In this document: piece by piece, positions 8,091 through 55,610 of the stretch
How the letters are laid out: each line of letters opens with the position of its first letter
Position numbering within the stretch: the first letter of the stretch is position 1
Origin: Marinilabiliales bacterium
Lineage (GTDB): Bacteria; Bacteroidota; Bacteroidia; Bacteroidales; ML635J-15
DNA length: 64,000 bases
Direction: 5' to 3'
Assembly (NCBI GenBank): GCA_002869385.1
Contig: PKTB01000019.1
Location: 456-64,455 of the forward strand
Position numbers and translations under genes: made by a program
Notes under the pieces: generated by a model
What the model saw: only the letters and a program-made list of their open reading frames with translations
The model's database searches: none
What the model was told of the DNA's origin: nothing

Positions 8091-8966
8091 TTAGTAATAT
8101 AGATTTGTTGATTTTAAACGTAAATATTTATTTATTGAGAAAAATGTTGAAATGACTGATAGGAATACTCCTAAAACTATAACAACAATAAACAAAATGC
8201 CAAGGTTTTGCCAGTCAATTAAATTCAGCATTTCTCCAATCTGATTATTCATAAAGTAAACTATTACAAAAAGAACTGCAATCGCAATTAAAGCACTAAA
8301 TAATCCTTGCATAGCTCCTGTTATCAAGAAAGGCTTTCTGATAAAATTTCTTTTTGCTCACACAAGTTTCATTGTATTAATAATAAACCTTTTTGAGTAA
8401 ATCATTAATCTGATAGTGTTATTTAATAGAGCAAAAGAAATTACAAATAAAGCAGCACTAAAAAGTAATAGTATTAAACTTATTTTCCTGACATTGTCAT
8501 TTATAAGACTAACCAAATTTTGTTGATATGACACTTCTGATACCATATTGGTGTCTGTTAAAAAGAATGTCTCCAACATTTGAATACTATCAGGATTTGC
8601 ATATTCAGCATTGAGATAAACATTTATTGTTGGAGATAAAGGGTTGTATCCTAAAGTTTCGAGGAAATTTTCTCCAAGTTCTTCTTGCAATTGAGCTGCA
8701 GCTTCTTCTTTAGTAATATACTCGGTTGATTTTATAAAACTATATGTGTCAAGGGTCTTTTGATATTGTTTAATATCTGGCTCTTTAACTTCATTTTTTA
8801 TTATTAAGGAAAAACATAGATTTTCTTTGACGTATTTTGATAAAATCTGTGCATTTATTATTAGAAGCCCTACAATACCTAATAACAATAAAACAAAAGA
8901 AATACTTATTAGAGATGTTATATAAGCACCTCTGATTTTACTCTTTATGTTTGTTTCTTTTTTCAT
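8091..8966 (-). CDS. ftsX: Cell division protein FtsX, interrupted by an in-frame TGA
   Basis: FtsX is the membrane partner of the ATPase FtsE and controls septal peptidoglycan hydrolases. The 291-codon frame shows the family topology: TM1 (about residues 14-35), a periplasmic domain, and TM2-4 in the C-terminal half. The frame is broken once, by TGA at codon 203, inside the family motif MKLV-G-A; the family has glycine there and the downstream sequence RNFIRKPFLITGAMQG continues the same frame. Taken as standard code, the protein splits into 202 residues and a tail starting at best at 8327. The upstream T9SS gene ends with TAA immediately before this ATG. Either the base is wrong, or the gene is nonsense-mutated, or UGA is read through. 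Confidence 0.88.
8358..8360 (-). other. In-frame TGA at a conserved Gly codon of ftsX
   Basis: On the coding strand the context is GTG TGA GCA within MKLV-x-AKRNF. The position is a conserved glycine in FtsX, so GGA to TGA is the simplest change. Confidence 0.9.
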
Positions 8967-11900
8967 TTACTGAATTAGGATTTTTTTAGTAATAATAATA
9001 TTGTCACATTCTGTTTTTAAAATATAAATACCTTTTGCAAAATTACTAAGGTCTAACGACATTTCATTGTTTTTTATTGCAAATGTTTTTAATAGTTCTC
9101 CGGTAATATTAAATACTGAAACATTATCGATTGTTTTGTTTTCTGATGTTAATGTAATAATTCCATTAGATGGATTTGGGTAGATACTTAAAAAAGACTC
9201 GTTTTCATAATCAGATATTCCTGAGTCATCCCAGAAAGTAACAATAATTGTATCGGTGTCAGTACAACCATTGTCAGCAATAGCTGTTAACCAAAATTCA
9301 TGATCGCCAACTCCATAAGTAGAGCCATATATTGATTGAACAGGTCCTTCAAAACCGTTACTCCATAAGTAATTACTGTATAAAGCTTCAATTCCTATAT
9401 CGACGTACCCGCTAACAGGTTCTGTTTTGTCAACTCCAAGGTCTATATCAATGGGTTCTCTAACATCTACAAAAACAGACTCTGATGTTGTACAACCAAA
9501 GTCGTCACCACTGACAGTTACTGCATATGTCCCAGATTCAGTAATATATACTGAAGATTCTGTTTGTGGCGGAGAGGTATTCCAGGTATATTCGTAGCCA
9601 CCTGCACCGGCATCTAATGTATAGGGTCCGCAAGCTACAATGTTTTCTGAATCAAAAAGAATATCGTGGTATGGATGAAACTCAACAATTAACGTGTCAA
9701 CTGTCTTACATGAATTTTCTCCGGTAACTTCAAGGATAAATGTGCCACCTAACTGAACTTCAAGTGTAGGTTGATTGCTAAATCCATTGTTCCAGTTATA
9801 ATGAACATAGCTGCCTTCAGGTCCGATAACAGTATCTATTCCTTCACAAAGTTCTATATCATCACCTAAAGTCATTATTGGGGCAGGATTAATAACTACA
9901 TCTACAGTGTCGGTTGAAACTACAGCACATGAATTATATGCTATACAGTGATATTCGCCTTGCATGCTTGAGCTAATATTTATAATGTTCAGAACAGTGT
10001 CATTTTCTCCAGGTAAAGGAGAGTCATTAATATACCATTGAATAGTAAAGTTATCGCCCTGAGCATCCATAATCAAGTTTAAAGTGTCGTGTTCACAAAT
10101 TGTTTGATCTATTGGATTCCATGTGATAGCAGGCTCTGTTCCTATGCTTAGCTCAGCTGTTTCAGAATCTTCATAACCACAAATGTTTGAGACTCTACAA
10201 AAATATATGCCGGTCTGATTAACTTGGGCAGCCGGATATTCTAACATGCTGTTAGTTTGGCCTGATACAGAATATTCGTTTCTATACCATAAATAATCTA
10301 ATGGTTCCGCACCTGTTGCTTCGATTGTCATTGAAGCATATTCCCCTACACATACAGACTCATCTTCGGGTTGAGTAGTAATTTGTGGTAATGCTAGAAT
10401 GCTCACATCAACTGTGTCTGTTGATATTTCAGCACATGTGTTGGTTAGCAGGCAATAATAACTACCGCTTTCTGTTGGATCTGCGTAATCTGTAGAATAA
10501 TCTTCAGTGTCAGCCAATAAAGTTGCAGTTTCTTCTAAATACCATTCGTAAGTTATTGGCTCTGTGCCAGAGGTAACAATATCTATTAGCAAATTTTCAC
10601 CTTCACAAACAACCATATCTTCTGGTTGTAAATTTACAAGGGGAGGAGTGTTTACAGTAACTTCTGCATCATCAGTTAAAATAAATCCGCATACATTACT
10701 AATATGGCATTTATAAGTTCCAGATTGTCCTGCTGTTATTGATGTAATTGTCATGTTCTGAGATTCATCACCAGAAATATTTCCACCTACAACATCAGAT
10801 CCTTCAAATAGCCATTGGTAAGATAATGGATCGGTTCCGCTTGCCTTAGCTTGAATGGTGATATTGTCTCCAACACATAATGTTGCGCCAACATGTTGTT
10901 GTGTAACAATTGGAGGCATAAGAGTAATTACTTCAGACGTGTCTGTATAAACTGTTCCACAAATATTGGTAATCTCACAGTAATAGTAAGCAGTATCATT
11001 AGATAAAAGATCAACTATTAAACTTGTGTTAGTTTCATCGGTTATTGGATCATTATTTTCATCATACCATTGATAGAAAGATTCAGTAGTTCCGGTTGCA
11101 AATGCATAAAGGGTAACATCGTTTCCATCACATTCTTGCATGTCAATTGGTTGTCCTGTAATTTCAGGAAAAGTGTTGATATTTACATAAACTCCATTAC
11201 TTGTATCGTTATTACATACATTGTAAGCAACCATTTTATACTCTATAGAGTGTGGATAAGAAGGTGCTGTAATCGTTAATGATGGGTCTGTTTCTCCTAC
11301 CATCATACTTTCATCAGCAAGCCATAAGTAATTTATATAGTCTCCTTCGCTAGTTGTACTAAAAGTAGCATCTTCACCTTCGCATATTGTTTGTGTTGCT
11401 GGTTGAGTTGTAATATTAACGGGTTCAACAATATCAATGCTTACAGTTTCTGAAATATCTTGACCACAAACATTAGTAACCATGCAATAGTATGCTCCTT
11501 CATCTTCAAGTTGAGCATTTGTTATTTGTATTTGAGTTGTATATCAGACAATATCACTAAGAACATACCACGTAACAGAAGCATACTCTCCATCGTAAGT
11601 AACTTCTATCATGTTGTCGGCACCAATACAAACTAAGTCGTTTTCACTTGTCACATCAGTAACAGATTGGGCAGTCTCAACAACAATTACATCTCTTGGA
11701 TCTGTGTCAATATCTCCCTCTCCATTTGACACGTTACAAATGTATGTACCTTCGTCAGCAGGTGCTAGTGAGGGGAAATCAAGAGTTGGGGAATCTGTTC
11801 CTACCGGAGCACCATCCTGATACCATTGATAGTGGAGAGGTTCGGTCCCAGTTGCTACAACTGTCATACTTGATGTATTTCCAGTACATTTAATTATTTG

Positions 11901-12005
11901 ATTTGGTTGTGTTGTAATAATAGGTGCTTGAGCATTTACATTTACTGCAATAAGACCTAAAACAATAATCGTTAAAACTAATAGTAAAACTTTAATTAGA
12001 CTCAT
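8967..12005 (-). CDS. Ig-like-repeat T9SS cargo protein, interrupted by an in-frame TGA
   Basis: The 1,012-codon frame encodes a signal peptide (to about residue 26, VNVNAQA), about ten Ig-like domains of 75-90 residues with paired cysteines (ITTQP... CEG... YQWY... GTYxC), and a type A T9SS sorting domain ending YPNPSNGIITLTS ... IITKKILIQ. The predicted location is the cell surface. The frame is broken by TGA at codon 154 (SDIV-x-YTTQIQ) in the middle of the second Ig domain. The stop codon TAA is directly followed by the ftsX ATG with no spacer, so the adhesin gene heads the ftsX operon. A promoter with both -33 and -7 boxes lies at 12060-12089. Confidence 0.85.
11544..11546 (-). other. 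In-frame TGA in Ig-like T9SS protein
   Basis: The coding-strand context is GTC TGA TAT. The lost residue cannot be fixed from the neighbouring Ig repeats; glycine is compatible. Both flanks continue the same Ig domain. Confidence 0.85.
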
Positions 12006-12059
12006 TTTATTTCAGAAAATTAGTAATCGAACAAAATACTCAAAAAATCAATACATGAA

Positions 12060-12089
12060 CAAAATTATAACCTACAACTTTTAAACAAA
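12060..12089 (-). promoter_or_regulatory. Bacteroidota promoter of the Ig-protein/ftsX operon
   Basis: On the minus strand a -33 TTTG (12086-12089) is followed after 18 bp by TAATTTTG (12060-12067), close to the phylum consensus. The ATG at 12005 is 54 bp downstream. Confidence 0.55.
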
Positions 12090-12136
12090 TATTTGTGAAT
12101 TTAGACTTTATAAAGAAAAGATATTATTGTAATGGT

Positions 12137-12631: not shown

Positions 12632-12643
12632 TGCAAATACACC

Positions 12644-17296: not shown

Positions 17297-20200
17297 ATGA
17301 AGAGAAAAATTTTATTTACTAGCCTAATTTTGTTGACTGGAATAGGTTTGTTTGCACAAACCATTACAATTGGTACCGGTACGACAACTTCAAACATTTG
17401 GGGACCATATCACGGTGCAACTGAAGATGCCAGGTTTCAATATCTGATAAGTGCATCAGAACTTACTTCTGCAGGATTACCCGCAAATGATATTCTTACT
17501 TCTTTAGCATTTGATGTAACCACACATAATAGTTCTCAGGCATTCACCGGTTTTACAATTAAAATTGCTCATACAACATCTACTGGATTTAGCTTTGGAG
17601 CTCCTTTTTTATCCGAGACTTTTACTACAGTATATAATGGGAATTATTCCACTACAGGTACAGGTTGGAATACACATGCATTTTCAACTCCTTTTCAATG
17701 GAATGGCACAAATAATATAGTAATAGAAATTTGCTTTGATAATTCTTCCACTACAGCTTCAGATTATATACATATGACTACAAGTGGGATAGTTCCAAGT
17801 TCACCTACCAATAAAGCTACAGGAACTGGATCAGGTTGTTCATTGTCTGCAACCGGTACTGGTGGCTGGAGACCTAATATGAGGTTCACACATTCAAATC
17901 CAAGTCCTTGTTCTACCCCAGTAGACCAACCAACATCTTTAAGTTTAACAAATGTAACTCATAATAGTATTGATGGAAGCTTTACGTCAGCAGTGAGTAG
18001 TCCTGATAATTATCTGGTTGTTGTTAGCACCTCATCTACTTTATCTTCAAATCCTGTAGATTGAACAAGCTATAATAGTGGTGATCCTTTAGGTGGAGGT
18101 TCTGTTGTTCAGGCGAGTAGTTCAACTTCGTTCAATTCAACAAATTTAAATTATGAAACCACTTATTATTATTATATTTTTTCATATAACTCTGCTTGTT
18201 CAGGAGGCCCCTTGTATAATACAACCTCTCCTTTAACAGGCAATGAGACGACAACTACGGCTCCTCCAACTTGTGATTACAGCATTAAGTTGGTTGATAC
18301 TTACGGAGACTCCTGGAATGGTGGTAAAATAACGGTATATGTTGAAAGTATTGCTGTAATTACAGATGCCACAGTAACATCTGGAGACAACGGAGGAGAT
18401 TGGAAAATAATAAATTTCACTGTTGATGATGGAGGTGAAATAACTACAGATTATACTGCAGGTTCTTATTCATCCGAAAATGAATATTACATCTATGATG
18501 CTGTAGATGCAGGTGGTACAGAAGTGTATTCTAGTGGCACAGGAGGATCAACACCGGGTGATTTAGGAAGTGGTGTATTATCTGCTTCTTGTCCTCTTCC
18601 TTGCACAACACCAACTGACCAACCAACAGTTTTAAACCTAAGTCCTGATTATTATCAAATAGATGGAAGTTATACAGCAGCAGTCAGTTCACCAGATGAA
18701 TATTTAGTCGTTATCAGTACAAGTTCTTCACTATCATCAAATCCGATTGATTGAACTACATATTCTGCCAGCGATCCATTAGGTGGTGGAACAGTTGTGC
18801 AGGCTGGTAGCTCTACTTCCTTTTCTGCAACCGGACTATCAATTGGAACAACTTATTATTTCTACATTTTTTCATATAACTCAGAATGTACTGGAGGACC
18901 TTTATATTACACAACATCTCCACTTACGAATAATGAAACAACTCTATCATGCACAGTATCAGCTTTTCCATATTCAGAGGATTTTGATGTGTTGACACCA
19001 AATAATGGAACTGTAAATTGTGTTAGTACAGTTGATTTAAGTCCAGTATGTTGGACCAATGAATCAGGTGATGATACAGATTGGGTTGCTAGAAGTAGTT
19101 CAACTGCATCTTCTAGTACCGGACCATCTTCAGACCATACTTCTGGATGTAATTACCTGTTTATAGAATCATCAAGCTGTTATTCAAAAACTGCTATCAT
19201 GACTTCTCCAACATTTGATGTGTCATCAATGAGTGTACCAACATTAAGCTTTTATTATCATATGTATGGTTCTACCATGGGAACTCTTACAGTTGATGCC
19301 TATTATAATGGTACATGGAATAATGGTATTTGGACACTTTCCGGTGATCAGGGAAATGCATGGTATGAAGCAGAAGTTTCTATTCCTGGTGCAGCTGGAT
19401 TTTCTGACCTTAAACTAAGATTTAGTGGTCTAACGGGTTCCGATTATTACAGTGATATGGCTATTGATGATGTAAGCATAATTGATATTTCTTGTCCTGA
19501 CCCATCAGATCTTACAGCGACTAGCATTACAAGTAATACTGCAGATTTAAGCTGGACGGAGAATGGAACAGCAACTAGTTGGGATATTGAATTAGGTGCA
19601 GGAGGATTCTCTCCTACAGGTACTCCAACCCAATCATCAGTTACAAATCCATACACATACAGTAGTCTATCTTCAAATACCTCTTATGATTATTATGTAA
19701 GAGCAGATTGTGGTGGGAGTGACTATAGCAATTGGATTGGTCCTTATAATTTCTCAACTCTTGAAAGCTGTCCAGATCCATCGGGGTTAAGTGCATCAAG
19801 CATAACCTCTTCAACAGCAGATCTTAATTGGACCGAAAATGGAACAGCAACAACTTGGGAAATAGAATACGGACTCGATGGTTTCGCTCAAGGCACCGGC
19901 ATAACGATTCCCGGAATTTCGTCAAACCCATTCACCATAAGTTGATTAACATCAAATACTTCATACGATTATTATATGCGTTCCGATTGTGGTGGTGGAG
20001 ATTACAGTAGTTGGGTTGGACCGTATAGTTTTAATACTCCATGCGCAGAATATACTGTTCCATATTTTGAGGGGTTTGAGTCGGGATATACCAACGGGGC
20101 AACGATTGCTGGTTGTTTAACACAACAATCTATTGTTGGAGCTGCAACCTGGATGGCAAACAGCACAAATACCACATATAACCGCACTCCTCGCACTGGC

Positions 20201-23200
20201 TCTTTTAATACAACTTTGTATTACGGAAATACAGACTGGATTTTTATCCAAATAAATCTTAACTCAGGAACAAATTATACTGTTTCTCTTTTTGCTCGCC
20301 AAGACGGTGCAACTTCGACAAATGCAAATATTACCGTAAAATATGGAACAACGGCTTCGGAGGCAGGAATGACTAATAATATTGTTGCGGCAACAGGTAT
20401 AATTAACGGGACATATCAAGAAATTACAGGAGATTTTTCTCCCGCATCAAGCGGAACATTTTACATTGGAATACTTGGATACATTAGTAGTGCTCCCTAT
20501 TATATTTCTATGGACGACATTTCAATAATTGAAGGTCCGACTTGCCCAGACCCATCCGACTTAACAGCAACCAACATCACTGGATATACTGCAGATTTAA
20601 GCTGGACAGAAAATGGAATAGCAACTAGTTGGGACATTGAATTAGGTGCAGGAGGATTCTCACCTACCGGAACCCCAACACATCTTAGTGTGTGGGATGA
20701 CTATACAATGAATAGTTTAAGTCCAGAAACTTCATATGATTATTACCTTCGTTCTGACTGTGGAGGAGGAGATTATAGTAGTTGGATAGGCCCTTATAAC
20801 TTCTCAACCATTGAAAGTTGCCCTGATCCAAGCAATTTATCAACGGCAAACATTACAACTTCCTCAGCTGATCTTAGTTGGACAGAAAATGGAATAGCAA
20901 CAGAGTGGGATATAGAATATGGTGCTCAAGGATTTACTCAGGGAACAGGAACAACAATCTCAGCTACTACAGATAATCCTTATTAATTAAGTGGATTAAC
21001 ATCAAATACTTCATACGATTATTATGTACGTTCCGATTGTGGTGGAGGCGATTACAGTAGCTGGGTTGGACCATATAGCTTCAATACTAATTGTGCCGAA
21101 TACTCTGTCCCATATTTTGAGGGGTTCGAGTCGGGATATGCCGATGGGGCAACGATTGCTGGTTGTTTAACTCAACAGTCGATTGCCGGAACTGCAACAT
21201 GGATGGCAAACAGTTCAAATACCAATTACAATCGAACACCACGAACTGGCTCTTTTAATACAACCCTTATTTATAGCAATAGCGACTGGATTTTTATTCC
21301 GATTTCACTTACAGCTGGTAAAACCTATGAAATTTCATTATTTGCCCGACAAGATGGTTCAACCACTTCAAATGCAAGCATTACAATTTCTTATGGAACA
21401 AGCGCTTCGGCTGCTGGAATGACAAACTCAATTGTTGCTTTAACTGGATTAACAAGTGGTAACTACCAAGAAATTTCAGGTGAGTTTTCCCCTTCTTCGA
21501 CTGGTATTTATTATGTTGGTATTTTTGGTGCAATAAATGGTACACCATGGTATATTTCTTTGGACGACATTTCAATAGTTGAGCTAACACCAATGAGTTA
21601 TGTTACATCTGTTACAACTCAAAACACAGATTACACATATCCTGCAGATACAGACCATCACATCATCGGAATTGAAATAGAAACATTTGGATATATTTCT
21701 CCATTTGATGTTACACAGTTTAATATTAATATGAATGGTTCAACAGATATAAGTGATGTAAGTAATATCAACCTATATTATTCAGGAACAAGTTCAACAT
21801 TTTCAACATCAAATCTTTTTGGAACAGTTTCACCTGCAACAGGCACACTGTCAATTAATGGCACACAAACTTTATCAGAAGGGACAAACTATTTCTGGCT
21901 TACTTATGATATTGCTTCAAATGCTACGATCAATAATTATGTTGATGCCGAATGTGTACAAATTACGATGAATGGTGGAATCGGTAGTCAAGTGCCAAGA
22001 ACAACCGCTCCATCAGGCAATTGTCAAATTCTCGACATTATTACCTGCGAACATAAAATCACTTTGTATGATTACGAAAATGATGGATGGGGAACTTATT
22101 GGAACGGTTCTGCAACGGTAGACAGAACTGTTGATGTTCTCCTTGATGGGACACCTGTTTTAACTGATATAACTTTAGCAAGCGGGGATAATGGAACATA
22201 TTATACATTTGAAGTAGAGGAGGGGGCAACAATAAGTACCCTTGTTTATGGCGGGTCATCACAAATGAAATATATTATTACCGGTGGTAATGGAGATTTT
22301 GTTTTAGAAGATGGATCAAACATGACAACACCTACAGGAACATCCGGAACTGCAACATGTGACTTCGAAAGCTTATTTACTTTAAATGGGGATGCATATT
22401 TTAGTGAGGCTTCCGGTGCAAAAGCAAATTCGTCAGGGGATGAAATCACATTAACCAGTGATATTAAAACTCAAAAATCTTCTGCATGGTTTAATTATAT
22501 GCTAGATTTAAGTGAGGACTTTGAGATTGATTTTACAATGAATTTTGGTACACGAAATGCTGGTACTGGAGCGGATGGAATTGTGTTTTCTCTACAAGGA
22601 GATTGTTTAAGTTGTGGTGGTACAGGCCTTTCAATTGGATATGGAGGTATTTCGCCTTCAGTGGGGATTGAATTTGATACCTATTACAACCCAACAATGA
22701 CAGATTATGCACCTAGTGGGGAATGGGATCATGTAGCTATATTTAAAAATGGCTCAAATGATCATGCTGGTACAGATGTTTTGGCTGCATCTGTTGGTTT
22801 GGCACAAGATGCTTTTAGTAATGTTGGTATTACTGATGGAGCAGACTATACAGCAACAGTAAAATGGACTGCATCCAGTAATCTGTTAGAAATGTATTGG
22901 AATGGTTCACCAACAGCTACAATTTCGTATTCAAATGATATTGTAACCAACATTTTTAGCGGTAATAATCTGGTTTATTGGGGCTTTACTTCGGGGACAG
23001 GATTAGGAACAAACAAACATACTGTTAAAGTCACATCATATCCAACAATCACAAATGCAGCACAGCTTCAGGATGAGGAAATAGACCAAGGCGATACATA
23101 CCAATCAGAGCTAAATGATTTTGCAGCTAGTTATACTTGGACACCAAATGATGGGACAATAAGTAATACAGCTATCCATAATCCAATATTTAGTCCAACG

Positions 23201-23848
23201 GTTACAACTACCTACTGTTGCGATATTGAGGACGATTGTGGTAATATAATTAAGGATTGCTTTACACTTACTGTTAATAGTACCTTGCCTGTTGAATTAT
23301 TAAGCTTTTCAGCAAATTGTCTTAACGATGAAGTTCTCCTAAATTGGGTAACGGCAAATGAAATAAATAGTGATTATTTTGTAGTTCAAAGAAGTGATGA
23401 TTTGTTTAATTGGAAAGACTTAACTTATGTTGAGGCAGCAGGTAATAGTAATCATAACTTAAATTATAATTACAATGACTTATTAATGAAAGAGTCAATA
23501 ATTTATTACCGATTAAAAATAGTAGATATGGACGGATCCTTTAATAATAGTAATGTTATTACTGTTTCATGTAAAGGAGAAAGTGATTTCAACTTTGAGT
23601 TATATCCTAATCCGGTAAATCAAAAACTAACAGTTCGATTTTTAAACAATGATGCTGAATCTGTTAAATTGTATATGACAAATTCAATAGGGCAGATTGT
23701 TTATCAAACAAAATTTGTCGAGTTAGAGTTTAGTACAGAGATCAATCTCGATGTTTCGAATTTACCCGAAGGAATTTATATGCTTAATATAGTGGATAAT
23801 TCTTCTGGCAGACTTGTTTCACGAAAATTAGTAAAACAGAAATTTTAG
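17297..23848 (+). CDS. Giant lectin/FN3/adhesin T9SS protein with four in-frame stops
   Basis: One frame of 2,184 codons runs from a signal peptide (ILLTGIGLFAQ) to a type A sorting domain (ELYPNPVNQKLTVRF ... KLVKQKF), interrupted at codons 256 (TGA), 486 (TGA), 883 (TGA) and 1230 (TAA) without any frame change. Domains in order: an N-terminal beta domain; two copies of a CSTPVDQPTSLSL repeat module with a CDYSIKLVDTYGDSWNGG segment between them; a MAM-like domain (about 555-730); paired FN3 domains starting CPDPSDLTA followed by a cleaved-adhesin-type domain, the whole set duplicated; a second GxW segment; and an L-type lectin-like domain (about 1690-1915). Domain repeats running across the stops show that it is one gene. 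Carbohydrate binding at the surface is inferred. Confidence 0.82.
18062..18064 (+). other. In-frame TGA 1 in lectin protein (expected Gly)
   Basis: The context is GAT TGA ACA in NPVD-x-TSYNSGDPLGGG. Related repeats have DGT at this place, so GGA to TGA is inferred. Confidence 0.85.
18752..18754 (+). other. In-frame TGA 2 in lectin protein (expected Gly)
   Basis: The context is GAT TGA ACT in NPID-x-TTYSASDPLGGG, the same codon of the paralogous repeat as the stop at 18062. Confidence 0.85.
19943..19945 (+). other. In-frame TGA 3 in lectin protein (Gly in paralogous copy)
   Basis: The context is AGT TGA TTA ACA TCA. The exact counterpart 1,050 bp downstream reads AGT GGA TTA ACA TCA (GGA at 20993-20995), showing a single G/T difference. 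Confidence 0.95.
20984..20986 (+). other. In-frame TAA in lectin protein
   Basis: The context is TAT TAA TTA AGT in NPY-x-LSGL. The paralogous codon at 19934 is ACC (Thr). The original residue is unclear; GAA (Glu) would need one G to T change. Confidence 0.85.
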
Positions 23849-27302: not shown

Positions 27303-30300
27303 ATGGGATTTTTTAAGTCAACTATCCAATACTGGGTAATTACTTTATTTTTATTAAGCATTTCATTATCTCTATACTCTGAAACCTTGTATGGTAACGG
27401 AGATATTAATTATGGTTTTGTTGAGGAAAAGGGACAGTTTAAAACATTTGACAACCTTCATTTCAGGTATCAATCTGATAATATGTTTGTTTATTTTCTT
27501 TCAGACAGGCTTGTTTTTATAAGTCAGGAAGTAGAAAATGTACATAACGAGAAATCACTCGATGAATTAGCCAAGGGGAATGATAACTTAGCAATGAAGT
27601 ATTCTGCAGTAACAACTGCACATCGTTTTGATTTGCTATTTGTTGGTTCAAGCCCTGATGTTGAAGTTACAGGTGAATTAGAAATGTCACATACCAATGA
27701 TTTTTATTATGGTCATTGTCCACAAGGTATCTTGAGTGTAAAATCGTATGAAAATATTAGATATGAAAATATATATCCTGGAATTGATCTTGTTTTTTCA
27801 TTATACGAAGGCACATTAAAATATAAATTTGAAGTATCATCAGGAGTATCACCAGAAATTATAGCTTTAGAATGGCAAGGAATTGACAATTTAAATCTTG
27901 ATGAAGATGGGAATATTCATTTTTCTGTTGGGAACTTCGACCTATCTGATCTAGCACCGATTTCTTTTTCAAACAATGAAAAGATAGAAACTAAATTTAT
28001 AACAGAAAATAATGTTGTTCGTTTTGCTTTGAATGAGTATAATCAATCTGAGCAATTAATCATTGACCCGGGGATTGTATGGGCTAGTTCAATGGAATAT
28101 AATGGTTATGGTACATGGGGTGAACTTGTTACCAATTCATCAGGTCAGTTTTATGTTGTAGATTGGGAATGGAGTCCAGGAAATGCCGACGTAACCAATT
28201 ATCTAGCTAGTGCAGGAACATCTTCAACTTATGGAACTGATGCATCTAATAATGATATAATTATCTCAAAGTTTAGTACAAATGGAGATTTATTATTGGC
28301 ATGTAAATATGGTGGTTCTGGAGATGATGATGTAAATGGTGGTGTAGAACTCGATGATAACGATAATCTTTATATAGCCTGAACTTCTGCAAAACTATTT
28401 TCTGCCGGATCGGGGGATTTCCCATTACAAACATGGGGCGCTGCATTTTATCAAGCCTGGGATGGGTCATTAAGTACTGGCACAAGAGGTTATTTGTTAA
28501 GATTCCAACCAGATAATACCCGACAATGGGCAACATATCTTGACATTGGAGCCAATCTGGAAGTTTTTGATATTTCTTGTGGTTTGAGTAATTATATATA
28601 CATGACCGGCAAATCTGGAGGTTATCCAACAAGAATACAAGCTGGTAGTATTCCTTCAGGAACAGGTTATCTTGGTGCACTTAACGGAAATACAACTGCA
28701 ACCAGTTTTATCTTGGAGTTTGATAGTAGCGGAGCACTATATTGGGCAACATGGTTGCCGGGTGAAACCGCTTCAACTTATACAGGAAGGTGTTCAGATA
28801 TTGCTGTAAATAAAACCAATGGAAACATATATTTAGCCGGAGATGAAATGTGGAGTTCAAGTACCCGCTTTACGCCCGCATTAATAACAGATACCTATAC
28901 AAACCTTGGACAGAATGACATGTTTTATATGCATTTTAATTCAAGTAATCAACCTGTACCTTCTTATGGACAATATCTTGGTGGCGCAGGTTTTGATAAA
29001 ATTAATATTGGTGCAGCAAATGGTGATATCGAGCTTGATCCTGACGGAGATTTATATGTTTGCGGACATACATATAGTGCAAACTTTCCTGTAGTTGACC
29101 CGGGAGGGTGCGCTTATTATGATGGAATAATAAATGATGGTTCAGGAATTACAGCTAATGTCGCCGGAACACAGGATGGCTATTTGTTTAAAGTAAACAC
29201 TTCAGGTACAGTTACTTATGCAACGTTTTTTGGCGGAACAGCATATACAAGTATGAAGCAACTTAAAAAAGATTCATACGATAATCTTTGGATTTGTGGA
29301 CATCAAAATTCTACTGGTTTGCCTGAGATATCACATACAGATTATTTTAATCAGACATTTGCTGGAACTAATTCAAACATCATGTTTGTACAATTACGTT
29401 CTGATGATTATATGGAGTGGCTAAGTTATTATGGTTATGCTGCCGGGTATTCAGGGTATTCAGGATTTGATATTCATGAACCAGCTGCTGATAATGTTGA
29501 CCTTTATCTTACTGGAAAGTTAACAGGATTGACACCTTTAGGGGGTGGATATCAGTTTACCAGTGCATCTTCGTGTACAGGTGCAGCAAAGTTTAATAAT
29601 CTTTTAACTGCAGTTGAGCCTGATACTATTACTCCAAGTGTTGCTGCAGATTGCACAATATCAGAACTTACTGCTACAGGTAGTTTACCTGTAGGTGCAA
29701 ATTGGGTTTGGTATACCGGAGGATGTGGAGGCACTCAAATAGGAACAGGTACAACTATTAGTATTAGTCCGGTTGTGACAACTACATATTATGTTCAGGC
29801 AGAAGGATCTTGCGTAAATTCAAATTGTACATCCATAACAATTGACCCACCTACACCTGCATCAGTAAGTGTTGATTTTCCAATAATATGTGATGGAGAA
29901 AGCGCAACTTTAACAGCTGCAGCAGGTTTTGTTAGCTATGATTGGAGCACAGGATCCACAAGTGACAATATAACAGTTACCCCGTCATCTAACACTACTT
30001 ACACGGTAACTGTTGAAGACTCAAATGGGTGCACCGCTGAGGTTAGTACGCTAATAACAGTAAATCCCTTACCAACAGTAACTGCTACAAATGGAGGCCC
30101 ATATTGTTCAGGTAATGATATTGAACTGTTTGTTAATACAACGTCAGGAGCAACATATACATGGGATGGCCCGAATTCTTTTAGTTCGGGAACTCAAAAT
30201 CCTGTAATATCTTCCTCAAGTATTTCAGATGGAGGTACTTATAATGTAACAGTTACTGCAAATGGATGTACAAATACAGGATTAACAAGTGTTGTAGTTA

Positions 30301-33300: not shown

Positions 33301-34070
33301 TTTCAGAAGTAATTACTGTTGTTCAATCAGATTTTAGCCTTGATATAGAGGCCGGTGTTATTAATATTTCCTGTTATGGTGAAAGTAATGGTGAAATTCA
33401 TATGTCAGCTATTGGTGGCACACCTCCCATTAATTATACAGTAAGTGGGGATGAATATAGTTCGATGTCGGTAAATCATAGCGGGTTGGAATCAGGTATT
33501 TACATTATTAATGCTGTTGATGCTAATGGTTGTACAGATTATATGGAAGTTACTATTTCAGAACCTGGAAAATTGAGTGCAACAGTAATAGCAAATCACC
33601 CATCCTGTTTTGGGAACAATGATGGTTCGATATATGTTAATGCTATTGGAGGAACAGAACCTTATTCATATTTTATAGACGACCAACCATTTTATCTTGA
33701 TACATTAAATAATTTTGGTGCAGGAGTTTATGAGATTGAAGTAATTGATGCAAATGGTTGTGAAGTAAATTTAGGGGTTGTAAATATTATTGATGACCCT
33801 TTAGTTGAATGTCTAAGAATTCCTAATGCATTTTCTCCTAATGGTGATGGAATTAACGATACATGGATTATTGAAAATCTTGATGTTTATGATGCTTGCC
33901 ACATTCAATTATTTAACAGATGGGTACAGAAATTATGTGAATCAAGAGAACTAGATTTTGAATGGGATGGAGTTTTTAATGGACATAAACTACCAACTGG
34001 TTCATATTTGTACGTTGTAAATATTTTCGAAAGAGACCCTTATGTTGGGATTGTGACTATAGTACATTAA
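27303..34070 (+). CDS. Giant SprB-repeat adhesin with type B T9SS domain, one in-frame TGA
   Basis: The frame of 2,256 codons starts with a signal peptide (WVITLFLLSISLSLYS). Domains: a DUF7948-like N-terminal domain (about 30-255), SBBP-type propeller repeats (about 255-770), two Ig-like segments, three repeats beginning GGPYCSGND or a variant (about 920-1155), then about 14 SprB repeats with CFGDSNG...GTPxY.YxWSTG...AGxYxVTVTDxxxC (1160-2160). It ends in a type B sorting domain, RIPNAFSPNGDGINDTW (about 2165-2255). This plan matches the mobile surface adhesins of gliding Bacteroidota. TGA at codon 360 (LYIA-x-TSAKLF) interrupts the propeller region; glycine is expected. Its own transcription unit is inferred, after the terminator at 27151. 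Confidence 0.85.
28380..28382 (+). other. In-frame TGA in SprB-repeat adhesin (expected Gly)
   Basis: The context is GCC TGA ACT in DDNDNLYIA-x-TSAKLF. Propeller repeats of this type read LYIAG, hence GGA to TGA. Confidence 0.85.
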
Positions 34071-35512: not shown

Positions 35513-38284
35513 ATGAAGAAAAAAGCATTCCTCATAATTGGTGTTACTGTTATACTCGCTGTGATAGTATTTTTGATTGTTTATATTTTAAATAATAAAG
35601 CAGATAAGCAATCAGAAGCTATTTGTGCTATACCTCCGGAATCAGCATTAATTATAGAAATTAATTATCCATTAGATTTTATAAATTCTACAAAAGAAGA
35701 AATAGGAATTTTTTATGATCTTAGTGGAATTCTGGACTTTTCTTGCAATAATTCTCTTTTGCATTATATCGACACATTAGATGCTTGCAAATATATTGAA
35801 AGCAGTGATGTTAATAAAAATATTATTTGGTCATTCCATCCAGATGGAGGAGGCAAATTTAATCAGTTATTAGTCGTAAATATTCCAGAGGAAGTAAAAC
35901 AGGAAAAAGTAGCTGATGAATTTAAAGTAAAACTTGAAGAATCTGGAAAAATCAGTAATCGCGATTTTCAGGGAGTAAAACTTTACGAATTTAAGAGTAC
36001 TGGTCAAATGCCAGGATTACATTTTTATGTAAAGAATGGACTTTTAGTAGTGAGTACATCTCAAAAATTAGTGGAAGAATCTGTAGAGAGTCTGATGTCT
36101 ACAAAATCAGTAAAAGATATAAGTAAGGAGTTTGCAGATATTTATTCAACTGCCGGAAAAAAGGAGATTGCAAATATCTATGTAAATATGAGTTTATTTC
36201 CTGATACATTCTTGAAATATCTGTCAGATCAGGCTAACGAGTCATTTGCTTTATTAAAGAGTTTTTCTTACTGGGCAGAATTAGACCTTTCCTTTGATGA
36301 ACAAAAACTTAGTCTAAACGGATTCTCAGGAATGGCAGACTCTATTCCTGTTTATTCAAAAGTTTTAAATTCTCAAATATCTACAAATTTAAAATGTGCT
36401 CAGGTATTACCGGATAATACATCATATTATTTTGCAATGGCTTTTAATAATACCGAAGCATTTAGACAAAGTCTCGCAGAATATAATGAACACATTGGGC
36501 AAAAGCAGTTAAATATTGATAAATATTCCGAGATAAAAGAGTCAACAGGACTTGATATAAATACTACTTTCTATTCATTGATTGATAATGAAGTTTGTTA
36601 TGCCGTAACAACTCCCGGAGCTCATGACAAATATGAAAATTCTTATATGATTTTTGGATTAAAGTCTCAGGCTTCTGCCGAAATGGAATTGGACAATATA
36701 ATTCAAGGGATTAAGCTAAATACAGGAATTTCGGAAAGTGAACTTAAAGATAAAATTAGAATTGATGAAAACACAAGTCTTGATGTTTATATATTGCCAT
36801 TTGAAGGTCTGCCTGAATTGCTTTTCGGCCATTATTTTAACAAGTGTTCAGTAAAATATGTATGCTGCGTTAATAATTTTATGATTTTTGCAAATTCAAA
36901 GAACTCATTATTTAAGATAGTTTATGATGTAGTTTTACACAAAACTTTGGAAACAAGTATTTATTATAATCTGTTTCTTGAGAACTTTTCTGAAAGTTCT
37001 AATTTGTTTATTTATTTCTCGATGTTTAATGGAATGGATATATTTAAAAATCTATTCAATGAACAAACCAGATCCGCCATAAGCTCAAATGAAGATGTGT
37101 TTTACAGTTTTGGGAATTTTGGATATCAAATAAATCAAAGTAATGAAATGCTTTATAATAATTTAGTTATTAAACAGCAAAAGTATACTATAGAGAAACC
37201 TCAGACAATTTGGGAAAGTCGACTTGACACAACTGTAGCAGCTAAACCCGCACTTGTTATAAATCACGATAATAGTTCAAAAGAAATATTAGTGCAGGAT
37301 TACAATAACAATCTTTATTTATTAAGCAATAGCGGTAGGTAAATTTGGAGTATTCAATTAGATGAGAGAATCGAAAGTGATGTATATCAGATTGACTTGT
37401 ACAAAAATGGAAAGCTACAATATCTTTTCTCAAGTAAAAATCAAATTCACTTAATTGACAGACTTGGTAATTATGTTGACAAATATCCGGTTAAACTAAG
37501 AGCCTCAGCAACTGCACCAATTTCATTATTTGATTATTCGAATAATAAAAATTATAGAATTGTTGTTCCTTGCGAAAATAATGAAGTCTATTTGTATGAT
37601 GGAGAGGGCGACTTGGTGAAAGGTTGGGAATTTTGTACTGCCGAGAACATTGTTACTTCATCAATAAATCATTATGGTGTTGATGGGGAAGACTATATTG
37701 TATTTCACGATAAATACAAAGCCTATTTCGTGAATAGGAAAGGTGAGAGTAAATTAGAATTTTTAACAAAGTTCAGTTTTTCTGAAAAGAATCCAATATA
37801 TTTTGATTATACATATTCAAAAGATCGATTTGTTACAACAGATGAGAACGGGACAGTTAGATTCTTCTATTCAAACGAAAAGCAGGACTCTCTTGATTTG
37901 GGTGAATTTTCAAAAGATCATTATTTCGTTTTAAAAGATGTAGATAGTGATGGAAGCGCAGATTATGTTTTTCTTGACAATAATAGACTAGAGGTTTATA
38001 ATAAACAGAAAAAGCTGATGATGGCTTATGATTTTGAAGCAGAACCCACTTCAGAACCCGTTTTTTATAGTTTTCCACGCAACCAAATAAAGATTGGAGT
38101 CGTCTGTTCTTCTGTAAGTAAGATTTATCTGATTAACAGCGATGGTTCGTTATTTGACGGATTCCCGCTTTATGGATTGACGCCGTTTAGCATTGGTTAT
38201 TTGAATTCTGAGTCGAATAAGTTTAATCTAATTGTTGGAGGTCAGGAAAATTTATTGTATAATTACGAAGTAAATGAAAATTAA
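35513..38284 (+). CDS. Membrane-anchored DUF3352-like/propeller protein with in-frame TAA
   Basis: The 924-codon frame begins with a membrane anchor (AFLIIGVTVILAVIVFLIVY). The first 570 residues resemble DUF3352-type periplasmic proteins (ALIIEINYPLDF, NRDFQGVKLYEF, TSYYFAMAFNNTEAF). The C-terminal 350 residues look like a PQQ/VCBS-type beta-propeller (VLKDVDSDGSADYVFLDNNR, LINSDGSLFDGFPLYG). TAA at codon 610 (SNSGR-x-IWSIQL) interrupts the frame without a shift; a Glu or Lys would fit. The gene runs into the next one, overlapping an alternative start by 11 bp, so 35513-41444 looks like one operon. Function unknown; envelope sensing or assembly is a guess. Confidence 0.7.
37340..37342 (+). 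other. In-frame TAA in DUF3352-like/propeller protein
   Basis: The context is AGG TAA ATT TGG in SGR-x-IWSIQL. GAA (Glu) to TAA is one G to T change; AAA (Lys) is equally possible by A to T. Confidence 0.85.
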
Positions 38285-43500: not shown

Positions 43501-43502
43501 AA

Positions 43503-49046: not shown

Positions 49047-49084
49047 TAGAAAACTTTTAAAACCGAAATAGTTTTCTAGTTTTG
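49047..49084 (+). promoter_or_regulatory. Promoter and inverted repeat (putative TetR operator) of the efflux operon
   Basis: A -7 box TAGTTTTG lies at 49077-49084, 11 bp before the tetR ATG. Perfect 9-bp arms TAGAAAACT (49047-49055) and AGTTTTCTA (49070-49078) flank a 14-bp spacer and overlap the -7 box. A regulator bound here would occlude RNA polymerase, as expected for autorepression by the adjacent TetR-type protein; the binding itself is inferred. Confidence 0.55.
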
Positions 49085-49095
49085 CAAATTGAATT

Positions 49096-49698: not shown

Positions 49699-49701
49699 TA
49701 A

Positions 49702-51084
49702 GTGATGATAAAAAAGATAGGAATTTTACTTGTATTCATTTTACCCGGGCTTTTATTTGCTCAAAACTCCGGTGTAATTGAATTGAGTTTAAGAGAAGCT
49801 CAGGATTATGCGATGGAGAACAATAAGAGCCTTCGCAACACTTACACTGATGTTCAGATATCTGAACAGCAAATTTGGGAAGCTATAAGCCAGGGATTAC
49901 CTCAGGTTTCAGCAACTGTTGATTATACTAATTTCTTCAATTATGAGATTGAATTTGGAATGGGTGGTGAATCTACAACTCCAGACATTGATTTTACTGT
50001 ATTAGATGCCGGAGATTTGCAAATTCTAACTTTCTTGCAAGAAGCAATGGGAACTGGTTCTACAACAATTACGATGAATAATTCTTCTAGTGCTAAGTTA
50101 CAATTAACTCAATTAATTTTTAGTGGTCAATACCTTACAGTAATTCAGTTAGCTAAGGTAGGTAAGATATTAGCTGAAAAGAATGTAGTTAAGTCGGAAA
50201 TTGACATTAGAGAATCAGTTATAGGAACATACTATTTGAGTTTACTTACGGAGAAGTCATTAGAATTAATTAGAGCTAATCTTGATAATTTGCAACAAAC
50301 TCTTGTTCAGACAGAAGCACTTTTAAAAGCTGGTATGATTGAAGCAACAGATGTTGATAAAATAAATATGTCAATAATAATGCTTGAAAATACCGAAAGG
50401 TCTCTTTTGCGCAATGTTGAGTTAAATAAAAATATAATGAGATTTCAGTTAGGTCTTGACAATGATGTTGATATTGTTTTGACTGAGAGTTTCGATGATG
50501 TTATGGAAAACATGGACATGTCAAATCTGTTACTAGGAGAATTTGATCCGTCACAGAATATTAATATTCAGATGATGGAAATACAGGAAGATATGACACA
50601 GAAAATGGTAGATCTTGAAAAATGGAATTATGCGCCAACATTAGTAGGTGTTTATAATTATAATCAGAAGCTCTTAACAACAGATTTTGATATGAATCCA
50701 AAGAATCTCGTTAGTTTAAGCTTATCTGTACCAATATTTTCAAGTGGGATGCGTAAATCAAAGGTAGAGCAAAGACAATTGGAGCTTTATAAAATGCAAA
50801 ACAATAAAGAGATTGTTACGGACCAGCTTGTTATGCAGGAAAAGCAATTTAAATTCAATCTCACAACTGCAATAGAACAATATGAAAGTCAAAAGGCTAA
50901 TGTAGAACTTGCAGAAAGAATCTATAAAAATACTGAATTTAAGTTCAGAAATGGAGTTCTTTCTAGTTTTGATTTGATACAAGCAAATGCAAGTTTATTA
51001 GAGGCTCAGAATAATTATATTTCTGCTTGTATGGAATTACTGCAGGCAAAATTACAATACGATAAACTATATAATAAAATTTAA
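49702..51084 (+). CDS. TolC-family outer-membrane efflux protein
   Basis: The 460-residue protein has a signal peptide (GILLVFILPGLLFAQ) and the two-fold repeated OEP/TolC pattern of long helices (SLREAQDYAMENNKSLRN ... and YKNTEFKFRNGVLSSFDLIQ ...). It forms the trimeric outer-membrane channel of the RND efflux system encoded downstream. Length is normal. Confidence 0.92.
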   Translation: MMIKKIGILLVFILPGLLFAQNSGVIELSLREAQDYAMENNKSLRNTYTDVQISEQQIWEAISQGLPQVSATVDYTNFFNYEIEFGMGGESTTPDIDFTVLDAGDLQILTFLQEAMGTGSTTITMNNSSSAKLQLTQLIFSGQYLTVIQLAKVGKILAEKNVVKSEIDIRESVIGTYYLSLLTEKSLELIRANLDNLQQTLVQTEALLKAGMIEATDVDKINMSIIMLENTERSLLRNVELNKNIMRFQLGLDNDVDIVLTESFDDVMENMDMSNLLLGEFDPSQNINIQMMEIQEDMTQKMVDLEKWNYAPTLVGVYNYNQKLLTTDFDMNPKNLVSLSLSVPIFSSGMRKSKVEQRQLELYKMQNNKEIVTDQLVMQEKQFKFNLTTAIEQYESQKANVELAERIYKNTEFKFRNGVLSSFDLIQANASLLEAQNNYISACMELLQAKLQYDKLYNKI

Positions 51085-51106
51085 AAAATACTAAATACGA
51101 AGCGAA

Positions 51107-52165
51107 ATGAAAAAATGGAAATTATTGATACCGGGTTTAATTGTAATCTCAATGTTTACAGTTGTTTCGTGTGATTCAGGAGCGAAAGCCGGAAATGATG
51201 AAACTTCAGAAGGTGAATCAGAAGCTAAAACTGTAAAAGTTATTGAGCTTAGCGAAAAAGAAGTTGCTCGTGAGGTTGATTATCCTGCGAATTTACTTGC
51301 TAATGAGGAGGTATACCTGGCTCCTGGAGCTCCGGGTAGAATCATAAAAGTTTATCCCGAAGTTGGTGATAGAGTTTACACTGGTCAGATTTTAGTATAT
51401 ATGGACCCAACTCAGCTAAATACTTCAAAATTGCAGTTGCAAAGTTTGGAGAAAGATATGGCTCGTTTGGATACGCTGATTAAATATGGTGGTGTATCTC
51501 AGCAACAATACGATCAAATGAAAACACAGGTAGATGTTACAAAATCTAATATTTCTCTCTTAGCAACAAATACAGTATTAACAGCTCCTTTTTCAGGAGT
51601 GATTACTGCTAAATATTTTGAGGATGGAGAACTATATTCAGGAGCTCCGAATACTCAGGTAGGTAAGGCAGCTGTGGTTGTTTTACAACAAATTAACCCA
51701 ATAAAAGCTCAAATCAGTATTTCTGAAAAATACTTTCCAGTTATTGAAGAGGGTGCAGAAATTAGTTTAAGAACAGATATTTATCCCGATACTGTTTTTA
51801 TGGGTAAAGTAAGCTTGATTCATCCGACAATAAATGCGCAATCAAAAACTTTTAATGTTGAGATACAAGTAACAAATGAAGATGAGCTTTTGCGTCCAGG
51901 TATGTTTTCAAAGGTAAAACTTGAGTTTGCAAAAGAAACAGCTATGGTTGTTCCTGCAATTGCTGTACTTCAGCAGATGGGTACGAATAACAGATATGTT
52001 TTTATTTATAAAGACGGAAAAGCAAAAAGAATAGATGTCGAAATTGGGAAAAGATTTGATGACGAATTGGAAATTATATCCGATGATATTCAACTAGGAG
52101 ATATTCTTCTTATCTCAGGTCATAGTAACCTTATTGATGGTGCAAAAGTCAAAATTGCTGAATAA
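51107..52165 (+). CDS. RND efflux periplasmic adaptor (MFP) lipoprotein
   Basis: The 352-residue adaptor has a lipoprotein signal with lipobox VVSC, a lipoyl-like hairpin domain (GRIIKVYPEVGDRVYTGQIL ... TVLTAPFSGVITAKYFEDGE) with a coiled coil between, a beta-barrel domain, and a membrane-proximal domain. It links the RND pump to the TolC channel. The gene lies between the two in the operon with 22- and 20-bp gaps. Confidence 0.93.
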   Translation: MKKWKLLIPGLIVISMFTVVSCDSGAKAGNDETSEGESEAKTVKVIELSEKEVAREVDYPANLLANEEVYLAPGAPGRIIKVYPEVGDRVYTGQILVYMDPTQLNTSKLQLQSLEKDMARLDTLIKYGGVSQQQYDQMKTQVDVTKSNISLLATNTVLTAPFSGVITAKYFEDGELYSGAPNTQVGKAAVVVLQQINPIKAQISISEKYFPVIEEGAEISLRTDIYPDTVFMGKVSLIHPTINAQSKTFNVEIQVTNEDELLRPGMFSKVKLEFAKETAMVVPAIAVLQQMGTNNRYVFIYKDGKAKRIDVEIGKRFDDELEIISDDIQLGDILLISGHSNLIDGAKVKIAE

Positions 52166-52185
52166 AATTTTAAAAAGATCTAGAA

Positions 52186-55100
52186 ATGAGTATATATAAA
52201 AGTGCTGTAAAAAAACCGATTACCACTTTAATGGTATTTGTTGCCATTATTGTATTTGGTTTATATTCATTATCCAAATTGCCAGTGGATATGTATCCTG
52301 AGATGGAGTTGCCGGCAGTAACGGTAATGACAATTTATGCAGGTGCAAATGCGAGCGAAATTGAAGCAAATGTTACTAAACCTATTGAGAACTCCTTAAA
52401 TACTCTTGATGATTTAAAAGAAGTAACTTCAGTTTCCAGAGATAATATGTCTATTGTAACACTTGAGTTTGAGTGGGAGTCAAATCTGGATGAGGCAGCG
52501 AATGATATTAGAAATGCGCTTGAGTATATTAAGGATAATTTACCCGAAGGTTGCGATAGTCCTATAATTTACAAGTTTAACTCATCATTTATGCCTATTC
52601 TATTTTATGCAATTACTGCTGAGGAAAGCTATGAAGGGATAGAAAAAATTATTGATGAGAAAATTGTCAATCCGTTAAATCGTATAGAAGGTATTGGTTC
52701 AATTGGATTGTCTGGTTTGCCTGGGCGTACAATTTATGTGGAAGTTGATCCTGTTAAACTGGAGTCTTTGAATATGTCTGTTGAAATGGTTGGCGGCATA
52801 ATTCAGGCTGAAAACATTAATATGCCTGCGGGTAATGTGAAGATGGGGCAGATGGATTATCAACTTAAAGTTCAGGGCGAATTCGTTGAGAGTAATCAAA
52901 TAGGAAATATTATTCTTGGAAGTTATAATGGTCAAACTATAAAGGTTAGTGACATTGCCGAAGTCAAAGACTCAATCAGAGATATGACTATTGACGAAAA
53001 AATTAACGGTGTTCAAGGAATCAGAATGTTTGTTAAGAAGCAATCAGGAGCTAATACTGTTGAAATTGCAGAACAAGTGAAAAAGCAGATGATAGAGATC
53101 GAGAAGACTCTACCTCCTGATATGAAGATTGTGCCAATTATGGATGCGTCAGAGTTTATAAGTCATTCTATTAGTAACATTACAGAAACTTTGATGTTTG
53201 CATTTCTGTTTGTGATACTTGTTGTACTGTTTTTCCTTGGCAGGTGGAGAGCAACATTTATTATTGTACTTACAATACCTATTTCTCTTATTGTAGCATT
53301 TATCTTTTTAGGAATAACCGGAGGGTCAATTAATATCATCTCTCTGACCTCCTTATCTCTAGCTATTGGTATGGTTGTAGATGATGCAATTGTAGTTCTT
53401 GAGAATATTACAAGACATATTGAACGAGGTGCGAGTCCAAGGGAAGCCGCTATTTATGCAACAAACGAGGTTTGGCTTGCTGTAATAGTAACGACATTAG
53501 TAGTTGTTGCGGTATTTTTTCCATTAACACTTGTTTCCGGTTTAACCTGAGTAATGTTTAAGCAATTAGGTTGGATTGTAACAATTACCACTGTTACATC
53601 TACATTAGCTGCGATATCACTGACTCCAATGTTGAGCTCACGATTATTAAAACTAACGAAACCTAAAAAAGGTAGATTTAGTTATGATAAAACTATTAAA
53701 GTTTTCCTTGAAAAAACAGAAAGCTTTTATGAGAGATTAATTAGATTTATATTAAAACGTAAAATATGGTCATTAGGAATCTCGATAGCTGTATTTGTTG
53801 GAACGATGTTTATGGTTCCTGGAATTGGTACAGAGTTTATTCCGGAATCTGATCAAAGTCGTGTTGTAGCTACTATTGAGTTACAAACAGGACTAAGAGT
53901 AGAAGAAACTAAAAAAGTTGCTCGAGAAATAGAAGCGGTAATTACTGATAAATATCCTGAGGTTGAGATGGTATCTACTTCTGCCGGGTCAGACGATGAT
54001 GGTGGAGTTTCTGCAATTTGGGGAACATCTGGATCAAATATTATCAATATTTCAATGAAGCTTATTTCTGTTGATGATCGCGATCGTTCATGTTGGGAAA
54101 TTGGTGACGATTTTCGAGATGAACTTAAAAAGATACCTGAGATTGAAGATTTCAAAATTACATATAGTGGTGGAATGCAAATGGGTGGTGATAATACAGT
54201 ATCTGTTGAGATTTATGGATATGACTTTGATGCAACTAATGCGGTTGCCGCAGAGATAGCTGAGGGTGTAAGGGGAATTGAGTCTGCCAGAGATGTTCAA
54301 ATTTCCAGAGATGAAATGAAACCTGAATTGGAACTTGTTTTAGATCGTGATAAAATGGCAATGTACGGTTTAAATACTGCAACAGTTTCAATGACTTTAA
54401 GAAATAGAGTAACAGGATTAACTGCTACAAAATTCCGTGAAGATGGTGATGAATATGATATTGTAATTCGTTTTAATGAGGAATATAGAAATTCAATAAG
54501 TGATATTGAAAACATTGTTGTAATTAATCAGCAGGGTGTTAAGGTACGTTTAGGTGATATTGGTGAAGTAGTTGAAACCTGGATGCCACCTAATATTGAC
54601 CATAAACGTAGAGAAAGAATTGTTACAGTTACTGCAGCTCCTTATAATGCATCACTTGGAGATTTGGCAAAAGAGATTCAAACTATTGTCGATAAAGTAG
54701 AAGTTCCAAATGGTATTTTAGTTGATGTCGGTGGTGCATTTGAAGACCAGCAGGAATCATTTATGGACCTTGGTTTACTGATGGCATTATCATTAATACT
54801 AGTATATATTGTGATGGCTTCACAATTCGAATCATTTAAAATGCCATTAATCATTATGTTCTCAATACCATTCTCATTCTCAGGAGTTGTTCTTGTATTG
54901 TGGCTGACAGGTACAAATCTTAGTATTATTGCTGCACTTGGAGCCGTCCTGTTGATTGGTATTGTAGTTAAAAATGCGATTGTGTTGGTCGACTATATTA
55001 ATCTTATGAGAGACAGAGGTGTTGAGTTATATGAAGCAATTGCATTATCTGGAAAATCAAGATTAAGACCGGTACTTATGACAGCTCTTACAACAGGTTT

Positions 55101-55302
55101 AGGTATGTTACCTTTAGCATTAAGCAGTGGTGAAGGTTCTGAGATATGGAGCCCAATGGGAATTTCAGTAATTGGTGGATTGATTTTCTCAACCTTCCTA
55201 ACTTTGATTGTAATACATGTTGTATATGCAATCCTTGAAAGGCCAGGAGCACGTAAAAGAAAAAAACTTGCTCATAGAAAGCAATATAGTTCTATGGATT
55301 AA
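52186..55302 (+). CDS. RND (HAE-1) efflux permease with an in-frame TGA
   Basis: The 1,039-codon frame encodes a proton-driven RND pump: TM1 at the N-terminus, two large periplasmic loops, and TM segments including the proton-relay motif GMVVDDAIVVLENI. TGA at codon 455 interrupts FFPLTLVSGLT-x-VMFKQLGW between TM5 and TM6, where RND pumps carry Gly (LTG-V/I-MF). Both flanks are in one frame and full length. As standard code it would give a 454-residue fragment that cannot work and a 582-residue remainder. The operon arrangement says the gene should be functional, so an artefact or readthrough is likely. Confidence 0.9.
53548..53550 (+). other. In-frame TGA at conserved Gly codon of RND permease
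   Basis: The context is ACC TGA GTA in SGLT-x-VMFKQLG. The family has glycine at this place; GGA to TGA. Confidence 0.9.
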
Positions 55303-55316
55303 ATGAAAGAATTATT

Positions 55317-55610
55317 ATGAAAGCAATATTTATAGTTTTTAATCAGGCATTAACAGAAAGAGTAGAGTATATGCTTGATGGTTTGGGAATACGTGGTTTT
55401 TCACAATGGGAAGGTATTCAAGGACGTGGAAGTGTCGACGGTGACCCTCATTACGGAACTCATACCTGGCCGGAAATCAATGTAGCAACAATGGCAATTG
55501 TCGAAGATGCTAAAGTTGATGTTGTTCTTTAAAAGATTAAAAAGATTGATGAAATTAATAAAGAAGTTGGTATTCGGGCTTTTGTCTGGAATATCGAACA
55601 AACAGTTTAA
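55317..55610 (+). CDS. P-II-like small protein (PG0164-type) with in-frame TAA
   Basis: The 98-codon frame begins MKAIFIVFNQALTERVEYML and has QWEGIQGRGSVDGDPHYGTHTWPEIN and VGIRAFVWNIEQTV. This resembles the short ferredoxin-like, P-II-related proteins encoded next to RND pumps in Bacteroidota such as PG0164. TAA at codon 72 (VDVVL-x-KIKKIDE) splits the frame; GAA (Glu) to TAA fits. The gene starts 14 bp after the RND permease and ends before a terminator, so it is the last gene of the efflux operon. Function is unknown. Confidence 0.7.
55530..55532 (+). other. In-frame TAA in P-II-like protein (expected Glu or Lys)
   Basis: The context is CTT TAA AAG in VDVVL-x-KIKKIDEINKE. Glu (GAA) to TAA is one G to T change; Lys (AAA) is possible. 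Confidence 0.8.

Follow-up and report, generated by a model that had tools for sequence, protein, structure and literature searches.

Oxidation of guanine to 8-oxoguanine (8-oxoG) during DNA preparation is a known source of G to T and C to A artefacts, found mostly as low-frequency read errors, and mutators deficient in MutY and MutM give G:C to T:A changes as well. Within runs of guanines oxidation is localised to the 5' side, and GA also has its place in the oxidation order. GG is described as more readily oxidised than single G in the review PMC5537945, and PMC8629427 names Absconditabacteria and Gracilibacteria as the bacteria known to use a code in which UGA means glycine. In the window, the whole 64,000-nucleotide stretch analysed here (bases 456-64455 of contig 6, PKTB01000019.1, of the Marinilabiliales bacterium assembly GCA_002869385.1), ten in-frame stops interrupt seven genes, as the initial annotation had reported: all ten codons were located, and read-through of all ten shows a frame continuous on both sides with no frame change. 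They are TGA at 8358 and 11544 (both on the - strand), 18062, 18752, 19943, 28380 and 53548, and TAA at 20984, 37340 and 55530. The assembly, of the order Bacteroidales, amounts to 4.25 Mb in 28 contigs with 93.35% completeness and 6.77% contamination, and the window has 33% G+C.

The ten stops are probably the nonsense fraction of a genome-wide artefactual G:C to T:A load in the consensus, due to guanine oxidation. Template guanines would have been oxidised to 8-oxoG and the copying polymerase would have placed A opposite the lesion. This would leave a T, or an A on the opposite strand, that enters the consensus if, as we suppose, few molecules support each position. GGA would thereby read TGA, GAA read TAA and GAG read TAG. 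Among the three explanations listed in the initial annotation, G to T sequencing or library damage is the best supported.

Changes at guanines before purines

On both strands of the conserved genes examined, about 1% of the guanines that precede a purine are changed, and a much smaller share of the remaining guanines. These genes are the 32 of a ribosomal-protein region (L015, contig 17) that aligned over more than 80% of their length, compared codon by codon with up to 16 genomes of the same genus; context was scored at nucleotides unanimous among the relatives, whose counts were pooled. T replaces G before a purine at 16 of 1360 positions here and at 3 of 17,469 in the relatives (p = 4e-16); on the opposite strand the event appears as A in place of C after a pyrimidine, at 5 of 358 versus 2 of 4673 (p = 3e-5). 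For G before a pyrimidine read as T the counts are 1/1000 and 27/13,117; within the assembly itself, 16/1360 before a purine differs from 1/1000 before a pyrimidine with p = 0.002, and the two strands show no difference in rate (p = 0.79). Grouped by 3' neighbour over both strands, the rates are 13/775 (1.68%) for GG, 10/1257 (0.80%) for GA, 4/1007 (0.40%) for GT and 3/801 (0.37%) for GC. The kinds of stop found agree with this context, as GGA, GAA and GAG each begin with a G that precedes a purine. A modified-base motif was rejected because no fixed context was seen around the stops, and an effect confined to the coding strand because C to A missense changes are also present. By eye, the strand of the changes looks slightly blocky along the operon.

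At the 4526 amino acid sites of this region conserved among the relatives, 22 radical G:C to T:A changes are found: six G>C, two G>V, one G>stop, three E>stop, one D>Y, three P>Q, one P>H, three A>E, one A>D and one S>Y. Among the 16 relatives the number of such changes per genome is 0 to 4, at 1119 to 4634 sites, and the excess here reaches p = 0.008 against the relative with the highest rate. Six genes of the window show 8 differences at 386 conserved sites, 6 of them compatible with G:C to T:A. Three changes are radical (G455stop and P1011H in an RND pump, G147V in a TolC-like protein), and relatives with more than 250 conserved sites in the window genes have 0 to 2.

The same consensus errors could have arisen without oxidised DNA, through a fault of sequencing, base-calling or polishing by which T is called for a G that precedes a purine; such an origin is possible if rather unlikely. 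All the evidence for errors applies to it equally, and GG exceeds GA in the operon only, not among the stops. A bias towards G before a purine is in keeping with guanine oxidation instead, and an unpolished nanopore assembly is at odds with the absence of any evident frameshift in the 32 operon genes kept.

In-frame stops across the assembly

The ten stops of the window are not special, for similar ones occur throughout the sampled parts of the assembly. They were sought with a dicodon coding score, trained on the window and 18 sampled stretches, as stops flanked before and after by coding sequence in one frame; a conservative filter further excluded calls with a start codon within the first six codons after the stop. 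The sampled stretches gave 57 calls in 341,763 bases, 38 with the conservative filter, evenly spread over the stretches (p = 0.47 and 0.24), one 7-kb stretch being without any. With the window included, the filtered calls number 42 in 405,763 bases (four of them in the window) versus 3 in 398,588 bases of relatives, or about 10 versus 0.75 per 100 kb, the control stretches of the relatives being richer in ribosomal genes than our own sample. Unfiltered, the numbers are 65 and 24 over the same lengths, ordinary gene ends making up much of both and, as judged by the filter, most of the 24 in relatives. Of the ten window stops the detector picked up 5; its calls there also included three ordinary gene ends (39966, 12644 and 8967), which were dropped. 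The set of 67 stops used below joins 62 detector calls, some of them probably gene ends, to the 5 stops that the detector missed.

The initial annotation had considered notable that TGA falls at glycine positions. In the window 7 of 10 stops do stand for GGA (p = 0.014 against GGA:GAA:GAG usage), but this was a small-sample effect absent outside the window, and the rule in conserved genes is G before a purine. The 18 sampled stretches hold 36 TAA, 12 TAG and 9 TGA; the share of TGA (9/57) is below the usage prediction (p = 0.04), an effect to which real gene ends that enter the list, most of them TAA, contribute. The 67 stops comprise 39 TAA, 12 TAG and 16 TGA, that is 58, 18 and 24% where GAA, GAG and GGA usage predicts 54, 18 and 28%, and a conservative set of 48 comprises 25, 7 and 16. 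The observed mix approximates codon usage and therefore gives no genome-wide preference for glycine.

Essential genes are interrupted too, fusA, rpsK, eno, der, nusG and similar genes being essential in bacteria. The stop lies at alignment column 355 of 702 in fusA (relatives Glu in 9 of 10, Asp in one), at 39 of 129 in rpsK (Gly 16/16), at 198 of 202 in rpsD (Glu 16/16) and at 125 of 429 in eno (Glu 13/13); frame and family match point to interruptions in der, nusG and a gene for an EF-G2 as well. Selection has not significantly removed nonsense from essential genes: of the opportunities in the ribosomal region, nonsense changes take up 4 of 462 and missense changes 11 of 524 (p = 0.13, from small numbers). 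Such lack of significant purging indicates that the changes probably never passed through dividing cells.

RNA genes are also touched. The one tRNA-Ser of the UGA type seen (L045:1501-1588, G000:C18:153532-153619) reads anticodon UUA and is labelled 'tRNA-Stop' by ARAGORN; among the 17 loci compared from relatives, 14 have UGA, and the motif is missing from the remaining three, which match less well. An ochre-suppressor function for this tRNA was rejected, given UGA at those 14 of 17 loci and tested stops that lie mostly at Gly and Glu. The UUA tRNA-Ser is a false suppressor tRNA if its changed base is an error. In the 23S gene (L058, G000:C28) one likely G to U change stands at a conserved position (GGCGAUCGAA; consensus g, in lower case). 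Multi-copy genes may be less affected, with this one change in 23S and inspected parts of 16S that look clean. Near a contig end, at L017:14-91 (G000:C21), lies an unusual tRNA-like gene whose anticodon was called as four bases (ttga); it is not one of the 36 tRNA places found with Rfam.

In the window, the interrupted genes begin on the - strand with ftsX (8091..8966), whose TGA at 8358-8360 has the FtsX_ECD domain upstream of it (Pfam) and the frame continuing beyond. On the same strand, a gene for what is, by eye, an Ig-like repeat protein with a secretion-signal-like tail (8967..12005) carries TGA at 11544-11546, with frame and coding score supporting both sides. The remaining genes are on the + strand. 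The fibronectin/lectin-like repeat protein, so named by eye (17297..23848), has four stops (TGA at 18062, 18752 and 19943, TAA at 20984) bridged by the frame. The first two fall at the same position of paralogous repeats of this one protein, probably by coincidence. The gene of a DUF7948/SprB-repeat/CHU_C type IX secreted protein (27303..34070) contains TGA 28380 between Pfam matches on both sides, with coding score in support, and that of a DUF3352 and beta-propeller-like protein (35513..38284) contains TAA 37340, with Pfam support and a propeller match below the cut-off. The RND pump gene (52186..55302) carries TGA 53548 and, at codon 55216-55218, P1011H (C to A on the coding strand); the nearest named match of its product is from a Bacteroidales metagenome-assembled genome, at 87% identity. 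The last one encodes a P-II-like small protein (55317..55610, TAA 55530) whose P-II match is just below the Pfam cut-off. In addition, a gene at 49702..51084 on the + strand, which from its position we take to be TolC-like, has missense changes G147V (G to T) and Q220K (C to A), each residue being conserved in 16 of 16 relatives.

The residue lost was read from homologues at codons 8358, 18752, 37340, 53548 and 55530; assignments at 11544, 18062, 19943, 20984 and 28380 rest on frame and, in part, on internal repeats. The expectation of glycine for TGA and of glutamate, as GAA, for TAA held for the most part where homologues were compared. Relatives have Gly at the ftsX codon in 15 of 15 loci and at RND codon 53548 in 82 of 85 alignments (Ser in two, Ala in one; 80/80 in a filtered set), Pro at RND residue 1011 in all 76 sequences aligned, and Glu at codon 37340 of the DUF3352 gene in 9 of 11 (Ile in two). 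For the P-II-like codon 55530, 30 of 77 alignments have Glu and 27 Lys, with GAA in the six closest. For the repeat codon 18752, 13 of the 21 alignments give Gly, although two of these repeat places already counted; four well-matched ones give Asn or Leu, and poor ones other residues.

Objections and biological alternatives

Several observations weigh against an oxidative artefact. It is deduced from the assembled consensus and not from reads, and an assembly of 28 contigs is no obvious low-coverage product; at normal depth, correct reads should outvote random damage. Reading of C after a purine as A is also somewhat frequent, with 4 of 534 positions here and 17 of 6886 in relatives, although three relatives reach or nearly reach our rate. 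The total of G>T and C>A changes in the operon is unexceptional (30 here, 29 in L066, 24 in L067), so that the signal rests on context and on the radical classes. The stops do not repeat the order of GG over GA, 16 TGA and 51 TAA plus TAG amounting to about equal rates. The parts of 16S inspected look clean by eye, a 16S gene being found in only one other genome among 31. The nonsense rate is below the missense rate, so that weak purging may have acted. Finally, two points speak for a mutator: the context suits 8-oxoG, in-vivo mutagenesis by which has a similar context, and neither MutY nor MutM is found in the genus.

MutM (Fpg) was found in none of the 19 genomes searched. For MutY, matches above the cut-off are confined to 4 of the 7 genomes of other families of the order, the 12 of the genus (G000 and G001-G011, our own included) having none; the MutY-like match of our genome is endonuclease III. 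The genus thus apparently lacks this pair of 8-oxoG repair enzymes; a MutY/MutM defect was part of the mutator explanation in the initial annotation. A living or recently living hypermutator, in which G:C to T:A changes piled up in a lineage without MutY and MutM, would agree with this and with an excess on both strands. Such a lineage is nevertheless very unlikely, given the damage to essential genes, where purging is not significant: it would be lethal to carry stops in rpsK, fusA, eno, der and nusG and to lose the UGA-type tRNA-Ser. Besides, relatives in which MutY and MutM were not found either have no excess, the ten searched for both showing 2 changes at 11,529 guanines before a purine. 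We give similarly little credit to a variant in which, in an anaerobic genus without detectable MutY and MutM, guanines were oxidised in vivo under oxygen, so that dying or dormant cells would contain single genomes with about 1% damage, one of which was assembled.

Decoding of UGA as glycine, as in Gracilibacteria and Absconditabacteria, has practically no probability here. TGA does stand at glycine codons where checked and is rare as a terminal stop, ending 2 of 40 window genes (33 end in TAA, 5 in TAG). This scarcity of terminal TGA in the window can make UGA recoding look plausible at first. The expected loss of release factor 2 (RF2) is not seen, since prfB is present (G000:C1:339333-340364, 479 bits versus a cut-off of 370), its model scoring over the cut-off in 27 of 31 genomes searched, our own included. 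The gene carries an early TGA, presumably where the programmed RF2 frameshift is expected, and a late TAA at which the relative L051 has Ala; it reads GAGVTES where L051 reads GAGGTES. A tRNA-Gly with anticodon UCA, the other feature expected of recoding, is absent from the 36 tRNA places returned from 150 scored of 320 first-look candidates in this 93% complete assembly: none of the 36 has a UCA anticodon, and tRNA-Gly has UCC and GCC only. The TAA cases, which the initial annotation had seen as weakening recoding, have many counterparts in the set of 67, where 51 TAA or TAG face 16 TGA. Missense changes of the same class occur as well, and S11 has no stop in 27 relatives. Ordinary pseudogenes or phase-variable genes, to which the large surface proteins among the affected genes might point, can be dismissed as almost wholly improbable in view of one substitution class in one main context, the inclusion of essential genes, the even distribution over stretches and the lack of frame change in the ten cases.

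Scale and relation to known systems

The consensus seems to carry about 4,000 to 9,000 G:C to T:A errors, an estimate made from rates of 0.6% (about 10 of 1742 GGA, GAA and GAG codons) and 1.2% at purine-flanked guanines. In this genome from a reference collection, broken genes are detected at intervals of about 10 kb, essential ones among them, and a tRNA anticodon is hit as well. The genome could be a false positive in searches for new genetic codes, pseudogenes or suppressor tRNAs. Comparison with relatives at guanines before purines sorts such cases fast. A literature search did not find the artefact described for assemblies, which is no proof of its being unpublished. Most likely it is an artefact to flag, not a new code or mechanism.

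Compared with the UGA-glycine code, the assembly is alike in its low GC and in TGA at glycine positions of some genes; it differs in that prfB is kept, a tRNA-Gly(UCA) was not found at the tRNA places returned, TAA and TAG are affected alike, and missense changes occur too. With MutY/MutM-deficient mutators it has in common the substitution class and a genus in which neither enzyme was found, whereas here purging is not significant, essential genes are broken and the relatives are clean. With oxidative artefacts of DNA preparation it shares G:C to T:A changes on both strands in the context of easily oxidised guanines; here, by contrast, the changes stand in the assembled consensus, at about 1% of purine-flanked guanines.

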